NCBI RefSeq assembly: GCF_900215355.1
Contig: NZ_OBEA01000007.1
Location: 1 to 64,000 of the forward strand
Length of the DNA: 64,000 bases
Direction: 5' to 3'
DNA from: Pseudooceanicola antarcticus
GTDB lineage: Bacteria > Pseudomonadota > Alphaproteobacteria > Rhodobacterales > Rhodobacteraceae
Part shown: in pieces, positions 17,993-24,726 of the stretch
Layout: each line of letters opens with the position of its first letter
Numbering within the stretch: the stretch's first letter is position 1
Made by a program: the position numbers and the translations under genes
Notes under the pieces: model-generated
The model's input: the letters and a program-made list of their open reading frames with translations, nothing else
Told to the model about the DNA's origin: nothing
Databases searched by the model: none

Positions 17993-19045
17993 CTAGGGAG
18001 TTTGGGGCGGGTCTTCCGGAATGAAGAAGCGGTGTTGGGCGCGCCCTGCCTTCTTCGAGGCATAGAGCGCGCTATCCGCATCTGCCAGCAATTGCTCGGC
18101 CCTGGGCTGATCGTAGAAGGTCGATAGAGTGGTGCCCATCGAGCAGGAAACGCGGCAGGTCACCCCCTCGAAGCTGATCGGCGCCTCGAGCCGCTGGATC
18201 AGCCGGGCCGCGATCTCTTCGATCCGGGCGCGCCTGGTGAGATTGTGGAAGAGCAGGACAAACTCGTCCCCTCCGATCCGCGCCACGGTGTCGCCGCCAC
18301 GGGTCTCGTCGACCATCAGCCGGGCCACATGTTGCAGCACATAGTCCCCCGCCGCATGGCCGTGGCTGTCATTGACCTGCTTGAACCAGTCCAGGTCCAG
18401 GTGCATCAGCGCGAAGTCCTGCCCCGTCCGTACCAGCCGCGACAGGATATGATCCATGGCGCGACGGTTCTTCAGCCCGGTCAGCGTATCGGTATAGGCC
18501 TGCTCCTCGGCGGCGATCTTGGCCCCCTGCAGGCGCAGGTTCAGCGTGCGAGAGGCCTCCATCGCGGCGGTCTTGGCCTCGATCAGGTAGAGCATTTCGA
18601 TGGTCAAATCGGTGGGGGCGAAATCGCCCGAATGCAGCGTATAGGTCTGGATCGCATCGAGGATCGAGATCCCGAAAGAGAAATTGACCAGCGCCCCCGG
18701 AGCCGCTGCCCCCTCCCCCGCCAGGGGCACCAGCACGGCCTTCAGTGGCGTGCGCGGTTCATCCCGCAGGCGCAGGTGCAGCTTCATTCCCGCCGAGGCC
18801 AGCAGCGCGGGCATCGAGCTCACCGCGCGGGGGCGCGACATCTCGAAGATCTCCAGGAAGCGGCGCCCGGCCATGGGGCTGTCGGGGCGCAGCTTCTGCA
18901 TCGTCGGCCCGGCGTGGATCACATGGCCGGTCTCGTCCAGCACCAGGTGCATGGGCGAGAGCGCGTCCATGGAGCCAAGCGGCAGCGGCGGCAGCAACGC
19001 CGGGCCGGGGGAACCAGCGGCCGGGTGGACCTGGGCCGTGCTCAT
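17993..19045 (-). CDS. Diguanylate cyclase with HNOBA (H-NOX-associated) domain
   Basis: A 350-residue cytoplasmic protein. The N-terminal 170 residues match the HNOBA/PAS-like domain that partners H-NOX proteins (MHLVLDETGHVIHAGPTMQKL, GRRFLEIFEMSRPR). A helical linker near 160-180 leads to a full GGDEF domain (DTLTGLKNRRAMD, HLDLDWFKQVNDSHGHAAGD, RIGGDEF) that makes c-di-GMP. RGGD five residues before GGDEF is a product-inhibition I-site. The ATG overlaps the H-NOX stop in an ATGA arrangement, so the two are translated together and the H-NOX should control this cyclase. Comparable H-NOX/diguanylate cyclase pairs are known in Roseobacter relatives. Confidence 0.9.
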   Translation of the reverse strand: MSTAQVHPAAGSPGPALLPPLPLGSMDALSPMHLVLDETGHVIHAGPTMQKLRPDSPMAGRRFLEIFEMSRPRAVSSMPALLASAGMKLHLRLRDEPRTPLKAVLVPLAGEGAAAPGALVNFSFGISILDAIQTYTLHSGDFAPTDLTIEMLYLIEAKTAAMEASRTLNLRLQGAKIAAEEQAYTDTLTGLKNRRAMDHILSRLVRTGQDFALMHLDLDWFKQVNDSHGHAAGDYVLQHVARLMVDETRGGDTVARIGGDEFVLLFHNLTRRARIEEIAARLIQRLEAPISFEGVTCRVSCSMGTTLSTFYDQPRAEQLLADADSALYASKKAGRAQHRFFIPEDPPQTP

Positions 19046-19629
19046 CCGGTCTTCGCCCCCAGCTCGAAGGCGCGGCCCTCGGCGAAGGCGGGCTCGACCA
19101 GCGTCACTTCGATGGTTTCGACCTGATGGCGTTCGCCCAGGTAGTCGAGGATCACAAGCGCGCCGTAGTCATCGGCCATGGCGCGCAGGATACCGACCAG
19201 CACATGACCGAAGCCCGGCATCCCCGCATTGCAGGTGATCGAGAACCGGCTGGCCGAGTGCTGGCGCAGCTCCAGCTCCGGTAGTTCGAGATCGGAAACC
19301 GCCAGCCGCGTCCGGTCCGGCAGGTCATCCAGCGAATGCAGGAAATCCTCGTAAGAGAGCCCGGCGAAGCGCAGCAGGCGGCGCAACCCTTCGTTGTTGG
19401 GATGAGAAACAAGGTAGGTGCCGATATCCTCAAGCACCATGGCGCGGGACTTCTTCAGCGCCACCGCCGCGGCATCGAGCACCCGCCAGGTCAGCGCATC
19501 CTCGTAGGTCAGCATGGCCTCGAATTCATTCGACGGCAGATCGGCGGCGGCGGCCACGTCCAGCCAGAGTGGCACCCCGTAGGTATCCCGCAGGAAACAT
19601 TGTATCGACCTGTTGATCAAACCGTGCAT
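19042..19629 (-). CDS. H-NOX (haem NO-binding family) protein with altered haem site
   Basis: A 195-residue H-NOX-fold protein: it opens with the family signature MHGLINRSIQCFLRDTYG and keeps the expected length (180-195). By eye it aligns with the guanylate cyclase beta1 haem domain nearly without gaps around FLHSLDDLPDR. At the position of the proximal haem His (beta1 His105) it has Pro104; the nearest His is His98. The YxSxR motif that holds the haem propionates reads C133-x-A135-x-M137 in the same alignment; a weaker look-alike, HSASR, stands at 124-128. Classical haem binding is therefore doubtful. It is cotranslated with the HNOBA-GGDEF protein. ATG 19629 was chosen because it gives the conserved MxGxIN start. 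Confidence 0.85.
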   Translation of the reverse strand: MHGLINRSIQCFLRDTYGVPLWLDVAAAADLPSNEFEAMLTYEDALTWRVLDAAAVALKKSRAMVLEDIGTYLVSHPNNEGLRRLLRFAGLSYEDFLHSLDDLPDRTRLAVSDLELPELELRQHSASRFSITCNAGMPGFGHVLVGILRAMADDYGALVILDYLGERHQVETIEVTLVEPAFAEGRAFELGAKTG

Positions 19630-19701: not shown

Positions 19702-21282
19702 TCAGAAGTCTGTCGGCGCCCCGCCCTCCTGCTTGCGTTTCACCACGAAGTCCTCGAGCGCGGCTCGGTTGGCATCGGGCATGGGCGGCGGGGTGAAGTC
19801 CGCCAGGATGCGCTTCCAGGTGACATGGGCGCGCTCGGCGGTCCAGACCTCGCCCGCCTGCTGGAAGGCCTCGAAATTGCGCCAGTCCGACAGGAAGGGC
19901 TGGTAGAAGGCGGTCGAGTAGCGGTCCTGGGTGTGCTTGATGCCGAAGAAATGCCCGTCGTGGCGGACCTCGCGCATGGCCTCCAGCGCGAGGGAGCCCG
20001 CGTCCGTGGCGCAGATCTCGGGCTCGAGATAGCGCTGGATCTGCTGGATCACCTCGCAATCCATGACGAATTTCTCGGGGCTCGCGATCAGCCCGCCCTC
20101 AAGCCAGCCCGCCGCGTGATAGACGATATTGGCCCCCGACTGCACGGCGGACCAGAGCGCGTTGGAGGTCTCCCACATGGCCTGCCCGTCGGGGACATTG
20201 GCGGCGCAAGAGCCCGAGGCGCGCATCGGCAGACCGTAGTGGCGGCACATCTGGCCGGTCATCTGGGTAGCGCGCATGTACTCTGGCGTCCCGAAGGCCG
20301 GCGCACCCGACTTCATGTCGACGTTGGAGGTGAAGGTGCCGAAGGCGCAGGGGATGCCGGGGCGGATATATTGCGCCAGCGCGATGGCCGAGAGCCCCTC
20401 GGCCAGCGATTGCACCACCGCGCCCGCCATGGTCACCGGCGCCATGGCCCCCGCCAGCGTGAAGGGCGAGACGATCAGCCCCTGCCCCCGCCGCGCCATG
20501 CGCATCCAGCCATCCAGCATCGGGTAGTCGTGCTTCAGCGGCGAGGTGGAGTTGATGTTGGTATAGAGGTGGGGGCGCGAGGTGAAGGTCTCTTCATCCC
20601 AGCCCCCGGCGAGACGGACCATCTCCATCACGTCCTCGACCCGCTCGGCGCCCAGGGAATAGGCATGGGGCACCTTGTCGGTCAGGGTGAGCTTGTCGAA
20701 GAGCACATCCAGGTGGCGGACCGAGGCGTGCACGTCGACGGGCTCGACCGGGTAGCCGCCGGCGAAGTGGATGCAGTTGAAATACTGCGTCAGCCGCAAC
20801 AGGTTGGCGCAATGCTCGCGGGTGCCGGGGATCTTCTGCCCCAGGTCCATGTCCCAGTAGTTGGGCGGCGAAGAGACATTGCCGAAGAGGATATGCCTGC
20901 CGCCGATCGTCAAGTCATGGGCCGGGTTGCGCGCGTGCAGGGTCCATTCGGCGGGGGCATGGGCCAGCATCTCGGCGATGAAGTCACGGCCGAAGCGGAC
21001 GACCTCGGCCTCGACGATGCAACCCGCCTCAGCCAGGATGCCTCGGGCCTCGGGGTTCAGGAAGGCGACGCCAATCTCTTCCAGCACCACCATGGCGGCC
21101 TCGTGGATCGCCGCCACGCCCTCTTCGCCAAGCGGCTCTGTCGGGGCGTCGATGTTGACGGGAATGCGCCAGGGGCTTTGCGCGATGGCCGCCGAGCCGC
21201 GCCTGGCGGCAGAGCCCGCGCGCCCGCCTCCGCGCCGCTTGCGAGTCGGATTGCCGGTCTCGGCTTCAGAACCTTCGCCCAT
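19702..21282 (-). CDS. Non-pyrrolysine trimethylamine methyltransferase (MttB) family protein
   Basis: A 526-residue member of the MttB superfamily. Archaeal MttB demethylates trimethylamine with a pyrrolysine encoded by an in-frame amber codon; this frame has none and is read through in ordinary codons, so it belongs to the non-Pyl group. Characterised members of that group act on glycine betaine, carnitine or proline betaine and pass the methyl group to a corrinoid protein. Visible family parts are MVVLEEIGVAFLNPEA, FTLAGAMAPVTMAGAV, GTFTSNVDMKSGAPAFGTPEY and NIVYHAAGWLEGGL. The N-terminal 40 residues are basic and of low complexity. No corrinoid protein gene is adjacent, so its partner and substrate remain open. 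Confidence 0.88.
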   Translation of the reverse strand: MGEGSEAETGNPTRKRRGGGRAGSAARRGSAAIAQSPWRIPVNIDAPTEPLGEEGVAAIHEAAMVVLEEIGVAFLNPEARGILAEAGCIVEAEVVRFGRDFIAEMLAHAPAEWTLHARNPAHDLTIGGRHILFGNVSSPPNYWDMDLGQKIPGTREHCANLLRLTQYFNCIHFAGGYPVEPVDVHASVRHLDVLFDKLTLTDKVPHAYSLGAERVEDVMEMVRLAGGWDEETFTSRPHLYTNINSTSPLKHDYPMLDGWMRMARRGQGLIVSPFTLAGAMAPVTMAGAVVQSLAEGLSAIALAQYIRPGIPCAFGTFTSNVDMKSGAPAFGTPEYMRATQMTGQMCRHYGLPMRASGSCAANVPDGQAMWETSNALWSAVQSGANIVYHAAGWLEGGLIASPEKFVMDCEVIQQIQRYLEPEICATDAGSLALEAMREVRHDGHFFGIKHTQDRYSTAFYQPFLSDWRNFEAFQQAGEVWTAERAHVTWKRILADFTPPPMPDANRAALEDFVVKRKQEGGAPTDF

Positions 21283-21392
21283 GATCTGCCTCGCTTCCTT
21301 CCTGACGAAGTGAAGCGCGGCGCGCAGGCAGGACGCCTTGCCATTCACGACATGAGCTGTCGCTTTCGGACCCGCCGCAGCGGGCGTGCATC

Positions 21393-21452: not shown

Positions 21453-22145
21453 TCAGGATTGGGCCGACAGCCATTCCGGCAGGTGGCCGATATGCGGCAG
21501 GACCACATGGGCATAGGGGGCCAGGTCCTCGGCCTGGGCGAGGCCGGTCAGCACGCCGACGCAGATCATCCCCGCCGCGCGGCCGGCGATCAGGTCATGC
21601 GGGCTGTCGCCGATCATCGCCACCTGGGAGGCCGGCAACCCGGCGCTTGCGGCAAAGGCCAGCAGCGGGTCGGGGTCGGGCTTGGAGCCGAAGCCACTAT
21701 CGAAGCCGGCAATGAACGAGAAGAACTCGGTAATCCCCGCATCGCCCACCTGGTAACGGGCCGAGACCTCGGAGTCGTTGGTCATGACGCCCATGTGGAA
21801 GCCCCGCGAGCGCAGATCCCGCATCAGTGCGGTGAGGTCGGTGACCGGGACCACCGGTGCCTTGGCGGCCTCTTCGGTCAGGAAGTCCTCCAGCCCCTCC
21901 AGCGTCTGCTCGGGCAGATGGACCAAGAGCAGCTCGGCCAGTTCTCGATTGGTCTCGGCAACGGCAGGGCTGTCTGGTCGAAAGGCCTTGGTTTCAAGGT
22001 CGAACCGCAGTGATCGCGCCAGCGCCTGAAGCCTCTGTGGATCGCCCTGCGATAGATCGTCAAGGACCTGTCCTGCCCAGGCGTTCCAGGTGCCGCCAAA
22101 GTCAAAGAGCGTTCCGTCCTTGTCGAAAAGAAGTCCTTTCAGCAT
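21453..22145 (-). CDS. HAD-family phosphatase, phosphoglycolate phosphatase-like
   Basis: A 230-residue HAD hydrolase. Motif I is LFDKDGTLFD (nucleophile Asp8, general acid Asp10), motif II is the Thr of GVMTND, motif III is the Lys of GSKPDPDP, and motif IV is GDSPHD. The helical cap inserted after motif I makes it subfamily IA, like phosphoglycolate phosphatase (Gph), but the exact substrate cannot be read from sequence. ATG 22145 puts MLKGLLFDKDGT at the N-terminus; the frame also extends upstream, but with no family match. It is divergent from the MarR gene across 217 bases. Confidence 0.85.
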   Translation of the reverse strand: MLKGLLFDKDGTLFDFGGTWNAWAGQVLDDLSQGDPQRLQALARSLRFDLETKAFRPDSPAVAETNRELAELLLVHLPEQTLEGLEDFLTEEAAKAPVVPVTDLTALMRDLRSRGFHMGVMTNDSEVSARYQVGDAGITEFFSFIAGFDSGFGSKPDPDPLLAFAASAGLPASQVAMIGDSPHDLIAGRAAGMICVGVLTGLAQAEDLAPYAHVVLPHIGHLPEWLSAQS

Positions 22146-22362
22146 CGATATTTTTCCGTCCCCACACACATTTCCAGCGGGAAGCTGCGCGATTGCCGGA
22201 CCTGCCGCAAGGGCTCGTATCCCCATGGGATCAACATTTGCAATTGTGTGCTTGCAAATATGCAGCACTCTCGCCAGAGCTGTAAAATCCGCTCAGGAGA
22301 TTTGCAAAGCCGGGCCAAGTCCCGAAGCTTGACTTTCGCCCCTGCCCCTGTCTGATGGCCCC

Positions 22363-22870: not shown

Positions 22871-23155
22871 TCAGGTCCAATGCACCTGCTCCCCGCCCGG
22901 CAGCGCCTGCCGGGCCTGGTAGGGCACATCGTAGTCCAACCCCTGCGCCTGGCAGAAGCCCATGACCCAGGCGTCATCCATCAGCAGGAAATCCAGCACC
23001 GCGCCCAGAAAATGCGGGTCCTCCGCCGAGGCGCGCAGGTCCTCTGCCGCAACGCCGGAGGCGCCCATGAAGACCGGCAGCAGGTCCTCGTTCGCCGCCA
23101 GCCAGCCAAGGCAGGCCAGGGCGATCTCTTCGGCGCGGGTTTGCGACAGGCTCAT
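22871..23155 (-). CDS. DUF3572 family protein
   Basis: A 94-residue acidic, helical protein matching DUF3572: LGWLAANEDLLPVFMGASG, DLRASAEDPHFLGAVLDFLLMDDAWV and ALPGGEQVHWT at the end. The family has no known function. In alphaproteobacteria it is often found next to a PleD-like response regulator, as here, where the divergent GGDEF gene starts 137 bases away. ATG 23155 gives the family length; the frame extends 27 codons upstream without similarity. Confidence 0.85.
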   Translation of the reverse strand: MSLSQTRAEEIALACLGWLAANEDLLPVFMGASGVAAEDLRASAEDPHFLGAVLDFLLMDDAWVMGFCQAQGLDYDVPYQARQALPGGEQVHWT

Positions 23156-23292
23156 GGGGGCGGGTGTCTCCGGAAGCGGCGAAATGGTTTCTTTACCAAT
23201 TTCACCAATTGATGTCCTACGCAATATCGCCGCCATGGCTCTGCCCTGCCACTCGGGGTGGGCCTTGGCGGCCCGCAGGGAGCCCCGCCGAC

Positions 23293-24726
23293 ATGCCCGG
23301 ACGTATCCTCATCGTGGATGACAACGTGACGCGACGGATTTCGCTGGCCGCGCGTCTCTCGGGGGCCTTCTACGAAATCCAGGTGGCCTGCACGGCGCTC
23401 GAGGCGCTGGAGCTTCTGGATCACTGGCAACCCGGCATGATCCTGATCGCCGATGAGCTCGAGAGCATGCCGACCGGGCGCTTACTGCGCCGGCTCAGGG
23501 TCGACGCCCGCGCCGCCGAGGTCACGCTGCTGGTGGTCACCGCGCCGGGCGCTCACCTGGGACGCTCCGGCCTGCTGACCGCGGGCGCCGATGACGTGAT
23601 CGCGCGCAATGAACCGCAGGAGGTCTTCCGCGCAAGGATGCGCGCCCAGCAGAGGGCACGCGAGGTGATGAACACCCTCAAGCTGCGCGGCAACGACCTG
23701 CGCCTGCCCGGCCTGTCCGAAAGCCGCGCGCGGTTTCCGGGGGTGGCGCGGGCCAGTTTCATCGCCCCCGATGCCGCCACGGCGCGCGACTGGCGTCGCG
23801 CCTTCGAGGGGTTGCCGGGCTTCCGGCTGGAGTTCCTGGACATGGGCGAGCTGCGCGAGGGCTCGGGACGGGCGGCGCCACCGGGGCAGCCGGACCGCTC
23901 GGGCCTGCTGGTGCTGGGACTGGCACCGGACAATGAAGGCCGCGGGTTGCGTCTGCTGGCCGAGATGACCAATCGCTCGGACCGGCTGGAGCAGGAGATC
24001 CTGGTCCTCGCCCCCGGCGCCTCGCCCTACACCCAGGCCCAGGCCTATGACATCGGCGCCGGCGCGGTGATGCCGGGCCCCTTCGACGCGGCCGAGATCG
24101 CGGCGCGGATGCGGCTTCTGCAGGCGCGGCTGGCGCGGCGGCGCGCCCTGCGCCGGGCCCTGGCCGAGAGCCTGCGCGCCTCGGTCACCGACCCGCTGAC
24201 CGGCTTGCACAACCGCCGCTTCGCCCTGCCCCGGCTGGCCCAGATCTCGCAGGCTGCGGCGATGCGCGGCGAGGGCTTCGCGGTGCTGGTGGCCGATCTC
24301 GACCACTTCAAGGCGGTCAATGACCGCTATGGCCATGGCACCGGGGATATCGTGCTGCAATGGGTGGCGCAGATCCTGCGCCGCAACCTGCGCAACGAGG
24401 ATGTGCTGGCCCGTATCGGCGGAGAAGAGTTTCTGGCCATCCTGCCAGGCGTTGGCCCCGAGGCGGCGCGACAGATCGCGGGCGGGCTCTGCACCCGCCT
24501 GCGCGAGGCCCCCCTTGAGCTGCCAGAGCTCGAGGCCCCGCTGCCGCTGACGATCTCGGTCGGTCTGACAACGGGCGGCGCCGGGCGGCGCTGTCCCGAA
24601 GAGTTGATCGCGGATGCCGACCGCGCGCTCTATGCGGCCAAGCGGGCCGGGCGCGACCAGGTGGTCTGCCATCCGCCGCTCACCCCGCCACAGCCCGCCA
24701 TACGGCGGGCAGAGGCCAGGGGCTAG
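23293..24726 (+). CDS. pleD: PleD-like response regulator diguanylate cyclase
   Basis: A 477-residue protein with two receiver-like domains and a GGDEF domain, the layout of PleD. Receiver 1 (1-125) starts RILIVDDN, but the phosphorylation strand reads ILIADELESMPTG, with the Asp not at the usual distance from the MP, and the conserved Lys position reads Arg (DDVIARN). Receiver 2 (about 150-285) is a degenerate adaptor. The GGDEF domain is intact: DPLTGLHNRRFALP, VADLDHFKAVNDRYGH and GGEEF, with RNED five residues before as I-site. It should make c-di-GMP, but whether phosphorylation controls it is uncertain. The divergent DUF3572 gene may be linked to it. Confidence 0.88.
   Translation: MPGRILIVDDNVTRRISLAARLSGAFYEIQVACTALEALELLDHWQPGMILIADELESMPTGRLLRRLRVDARAAEVTLLVVTAPGAHLGRSGLLTAGADDVIARNEPQEVFRARMRAQQRAREVMNTLKLRGNDLRLPGLSESRARFPGVARASFIAPDAATARDWRRAFEGLPGFRLEFLDMGELREGSGRAAPPGQPDRSGLLVLGLAPDNEGRGLRLLAEMTNRSDRLEQEILVLAPGASPYTQAQAYDIGAGAVMPGPFDAAEIAARMRLLQARLARRRALRRALAESLRASVTDPLTGLHNRRFALPRLAQISQAAAMRGEGFAVLVADLDHFKAVNDRYGHGTGDIVLQWVAQILRRNLRNEDVLARIGGEEFLAILPGVGPEAARQIAGGLCTRLREAPLELPELEAPLPLTISVGLTTGGAGRRCPEELIADADRALYAAKRAGRDQVVCHPPLTPPQPAIRRAEARG

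Follow-up and report, generated by a model that had tools for sequence, protein, structure and literature searches.

The window analysed here is a stretch of 64,000 nucleotides from Pseudooceanicola antarcticus (contig NZ_OBEA01000007.1), and our subject is the H-NOX (HNOB) gene at 19042..19629 on the minus strand together with the diguanylate cyclase gene that follows it. The H-NOX gene encodes P0001, a protein of 195 amino acids (aa) with neither the proximal His nor the YxSxR motif. P0001 scored 77.4 bits against Pfam HNOB PF07700 (curated cut-off 25.5) and its predicted fold is that of an H-NOX domain, with residues 184-195 modelled at a local confidence score (pLDDT) <50. Position 19629 is the likely start, despite an ATG further upstream, since a Met-His-Gly start is common to the relatives. 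The protein contains two cysteines only, Cys11 and Cys133. The downstream gene (17993..19045, minus strand) encodes the partner diguanylate cyclase of 350 aa, and its start overlaps the H-NOX stop as ATGA. The cyclase consists of an N-terminal HNOBA-type domain followed by a GGDEF domain (139.5 bits) with an RxxD inhibitory-site motif. The HNOBA-type domain scored 24.0 bits when the N-terminal 175 aa were used (cut-off 23.4) and 21.6 bits, slightly below that cut-off, with the whole protein.

H-NOX domains hold haem through His105, which is the ligand, and through YxSxR, which anchors the propionates. An earlier note on this DNA had placed Pro104 of P0001 at the position of His105 and Cys133-x-Ala135-x-Met137 at that of YxSxR, and this placement was confirmed by three alignments. 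In a phmmer alignment with Nostoc Alr2278 (E 1.9e-14) LDDLP stood opposite LDNLH and CNAGM opposite YQSTR. Pro104 fell in the haem-His column of a MAFFT alignment of 293 distinct H-NOX proteins, and hhalign, in which 60 relatives were compared to 7 canonical H-NOX proteins (99.8% probability, gap-free to about residue 170), gave the same columns as phmmer. The place of the proximal His on helix F (Alr2278 His105) is thus taken by Pro104, codon CCG at 19318..19320 on the minus strand, and that of the YxSxR motif by Cys-Asn-Ala-Gly-Met, residues 133-137 at 19219..19233 on the same strand. Judged by its sequence, P0001 lacks the canonical haem ligand and the canonical propionate anchor. Pro104 is no sequencing slip, because four near relatives (L062-L065) also carry Pro at this column, with codons CCG and CCC, and because the ratio of nonsynonymous to synonymous substitution rates (dN/dS) against the nearest relative is 0.09.

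We searched 394 genomes of the window's family (393 genera) with P0001 at E 0.001 or less and obtained matches in 287 genomes (286 genera), a few of them weak canonical H-NOX matches or fragments. The 311 loci yielded 309 H-NOX frames, some being fragments or one gene fetched twice, and these gave the 293 distinct proteins. Clade A comprises the 263 that scored higher with a profile of P0001 relatives; the other 30 were canonical and, being the best-scoring loci, are a non-random sample, in which the ligand column held His in every case (30/30). In clade A this column contained Pro in 193 proteins, His in 19, Ser in 11, Gln in 9, Ala in 9, Arg in 7, Asn in 6, Gly in 3, Glu in 2, and Thr, Tyr, Asp and a gap in one each. 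A sample of 193 clade proteins, mostly one per genus and with named loci and fragments excluded, gave Pro in 139 and His in 17. The YxSxR position, located by an ungapped count from the conserved Gly146, could be placed in 260 of the 263 clade members; Tyr, Ser and Arg occurred together in none of these, Tyr in one and Arg in 12, and the column of Cys133 was Cys in 157. Trp was seen at the Ser position in 20 of the 260, among them the protein of Dinoroseobacter shibae (L142, C-x-W-x-R).

Nine of 385 genomes sampled from the window's class matched, five within the window's family (the window's own genome counted) and four elsewhere. The four outside matches (64-94 bits) keep both the His and YxSxR, one of the five family matches (G294) is a canonical H-NOX, and clade A was confined to the window's family in this sample. 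Within the window's order 161 of 196 genomes matched. A tree was built from 112 rows, of which 99 were from the clade (the non-Pro members of the genus sample and 45 Pro members, the window included) and 13 were canonical. One branch with an approximate likelihood ratio (SH-aLRT) support of 99 separated the two sets. The His-bearing clade members lay near the base and scattered, with 13 changes, a pattern consistent with an early loss of YxSxR and repeated losses of the His, although support for the inner branches is weak.

The P0001 gene is under purifying selection. Comparison with the nearest relative, Oceanicola sp. S124 (L062, 91% identical), gave dN 0.061 and dS 0.660, the source of the ratio of 0.09, and the ratios against three further near relatives were 0.16-0.29. 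Pro stood at column 104 in 193 of 261 clade genes, with all four Pro codons in use. Among the 193 sampled proteins 42 columns were conserved at 90% or more. Near-invariant residues were E67 (98%), D68 (97%), R83 (98%), R84 (99%), R87 (100%), the stretch A152-D-D-Y-G156 (96-99%), F188 (99%) and L190 (98%). Column 73, which in Alr2278 holds a Trp of the distal haem pocket, was Leu in 95% of the same proteins. F188 and L190 are conserved even though they lie in the low-pLDDT tail, from which we infer that this tail becomes ordered on a partner.

Pairing with the cyclase gene was counted over 279 clade matches, 273 of which had at least 1.3 kb of downstream sequence. A GGDEF frame followed the H-NOX gene in all 273, starting about 70 nt or less from the H-NOX stop in 271 and farther away in two, so that the tie to the adjacent HNOBA-GGDEF cyclase gene pointed out in the earlier note extends to every clade locus with room for it. 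GGDEF was exact in 274 of the 275 partners extracted, RxxD was present in 271, and the start lay 4 nt inside the H-NOX gene in 195. A GGDEF frame was found downstream of 2 of the 30 canonical loci, and the partners at two other canonical loci (L003 and L006) were read from their sequences as putative histidine kinases. The canonical H-NOX gene of G294 (L002:1498-2043), with intact His and YxSxR, is followed by a gene for an HNOBA-like GGDEF protein of about 480 aa or more that has further sequence C-terminal to GGDEF; this predicted haem-competent version of the H-NOX/GGDEF pair is a useful control.

Three recurrent neighbours lie upstream of the H-NOX gene on the minus strand: a gene of the trimethylamine methyltransferase family (MTTB, 19702..21348), a HAD-family hydrolase gene (21453..22268) and a gene for a DUF3572 protein (22871..23236). 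Across 71 named loci with full flanks, same-strand neighbours of these families were found at 59 (MTTB), 63 (HAD) and 63 (DUF3572) loci, and the MTTB gene ended <=1 kb from the H-NOX start at 31. We know of no link between MTTB-family genes and cyclic di-GMP (c-di-GMP). On a 120-kb plasmid of Phaeobacter sp. G2 (L346:4001-5607) the H-NOX/GGDEF pair has DUF3572, HAD and trimethylamine methyltransferase neighbours. The window also contains a second diguanylate cyclase gene, with a receiver domain, at 23164-24726 on the plus strand, about 3.5 kb from the H-NOX gene. In 32 of the 71 named relatives a similar receiver region lies upstream on the opposite strand, and two c-di-GMP synthase genes are thus often close together at such loci.

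The explanation that we favour, and hold to be fairly probable, is that P0001 is a Rhodobacteraceae member of the published Group 5 of H-NOX proteins, devoid of the haem ligand, which serves the cyclase from the overlapping gene as its dedicated regulatory subunit and has no Fe-His switch for nitric oxide (NO). Of this, the sequence family, predicted fold, residues, conservation, purifying selection and gene pairing are shown by the analysis. On this reading, replacement of His by Pro removed the ligand of the haem iron from a protein of the H-NOX fold, and the change of YxSxR to CxAxM removed its propionate anchor; the protein would presumably be free of haem and would have been kept as a subunit of the diguanylate cyclase. 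P0001 most likely binds the HNOBA domain of the cyclase and would alter c-di-GMP output without the canonical switch; in Paracoccus denitrificans the output is apparently lowered. Several points weigh against this explanation. Proteins can bind haem without this His. In D. shibae, whose H-NOX belongs to the clade and retains the His and the YxSxR Arg, the NO-bound protein was described as an inhibitor of Dgc1 (PMC7232146). The authors of the P. denitrificans study note the missing His and yet propose that NO acts via H-NOX, in addition to an H-NOX-independent route (PMC5588039). The direction of regulation is suggested by one relative, P. denitrificans, in which it was itself inferred. More tentatively, the sensing site may have moved from the haem pocket to the near-invariant charged set (E67/D68, R83/R84/R87, D153/D154/Y155) together with a conserved GRxFxL tail becoming ordered on the cyclase, in which case H-NOX proteins across the clade would sense a non-gas signal or the state of the cyclase and set c-di-GMP accordingly.

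Among the alternatives, we think it rather unlikely that the emptied pocket holds another, probably hydrophobic, ligand, which would make P0001 a one-component c-di-GMP sensor of a non-gas signal. It is also unlikely that P0001 remains haem-bound, with another axial ligand (His98 or the conserved His2) or none, and still senses NO. The retained H-NOX fold, the His at position 2 in 241 of the 263 clade members, the Pro kept at Alr2278 column 118 in 262 of them, the NO response reported for D. shibae (PMC7232146, PMC8846402) and the proposal made for the His-less P. denitrificans protein (PMC5588039) would all agree with continued haem binding, but the YxSxR motif is missing from all 260 proteins placed, Leu prevails over Trp at column 73, and D. 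shibae itself belongs to the 19 clade members with the His. Position 98, suggested in the earlier note as a replacement ligand, is His in only 173 of the 263 and is Glu in P. denitrificans and Asp in D. shibae, so this suggestion was not borne out. A thiol or zinc redox sensor is very improbable: a haem-free H-NOX such as that of Vibrio cholerae can signal by oxidised zinc-site cysteines (PMC7108781; related case PMC12329717), but P0001, with Cys11 and Cys133 only, does not have the three conserved zinc-ligating Cys of the V. cholerae/Shewanella oneidensis type, no column reached 80% Cys among the 193 proteins, the Cys133 column varies, and Group 5 is described as having no conserved Cys (PMC8738867). 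That P0001 is a decaying relic retained solely through translational coupling to the cyclase gene is scarcely credible, since the loss and variability of the haem residues and a stop within the matched frame in four genomes (G271, G176, G196 and the G360 fragment) stand against a dN/dS of 0.09, the 42 conserved columns, matches in 286 of 393 genera and a phenotype upon hnoX deletion in P. denitrificans (PMC5588039).

P0001 belongs to a group already described and is no new type, and the loss of the ligand has already been published. The present analysis adds a count across the family, the pairing of the two genes, evidence against His98, a set of newly constrained residues and the recognition of D. 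shibae as a His-bearing exception. The census indicates that clade members have as a rule lost the haem ligand, that the member reported to respond to NO, D. shibae, is an exception that bears the His, and that other residues are constrained instead. The label 'NO sensor' should not be copied onto clade genes. What Group 5 proteins sense is a question stated openly in PMC8738867, and the census helps to make it testable.

Group 5, described in 2022 as 'very large' and seeded by the P. denitrificans H-NOX, has the proximal His in <10% of its members, mostly Pro in its place and no conserved Cys, and the authors pose as a question how the members sense anything (PMC8738867). P0001 (Pro) and clade A (193 Pro and 19 His among 263) share these features, and the P. 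denitrificans seed is homologous to P0001 (tblastn, 41.6% identity over 97%, E 7e-37). A legend in that paper lists neighbour families over all groups that include GGDEF, MTTB and HAD, which fits the window. Judged from the published description, we found no difference between Group 5 and clade A. With this group on record, and a His-less P. denitrificans protein reported in 2017 (PMC5588039), the new type of haem-free sensor suggested in the earlier note falls away, as did its His98, while its claims of ligand and anchor loss and of a tie to the cyclase gene stand. PMC5588039 states that the His is absent from the H-NOX of P. denitrificans and, citing a 2003 paper, from that of Rhodobacter sphaeroides. 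In P. denitrificans the H-NOX gene, Pden_3719, overlaps dgcA, which encodes the GGDEF protein DgcA (Pden_3720). The hnoX mutant underproduces biofilm, and on this basis the authors of that study suggest that H-NOX is an inhibitor of DgcA, an effect which NO would stimulate. The P. denitrificans protein resembles P0001 in the absent His, the overlapped GGDEF gene and, in the HAMBI_2443 record, Pro in the ligand column, and differs in having A-x-S-x-Q instead of C-x-A-x-M, Glu at position 98 and 41.6% identity. A 100% match to a plasmid record identified genome G035 as D. shibae. Its one HNOB match retains the His and has C-x-W-x-R at YxSxR, and since D. shibae has one H-NOX gene (PMC6473078) we take this protein to be Dshi_2815. 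Dshi_2815 belongs to the same clade as P0001 and has a GGDEF gene (Dgc1) downstream, but with the proximal His and the YxSxR Arg still in place there, the NO response reported for it does not necessarily carry over to P0001. The H-NOX domains of Nostoc Alr2278 and of the beta1 subunit of soluble guanylate cyclase (sGC) have the His and YxSxR whose equivalents are missing in P0001. The sGC alpha H-NOX is a domain of a fused eukaryotic cyclase, whereas P0001 is free-standing and has a GGDEF enzyme as its partner. As a haem-less H-NOX domain within a regulator of a nucleotide cyclase (PMC6839917), it resembles what is proposed for P0001.
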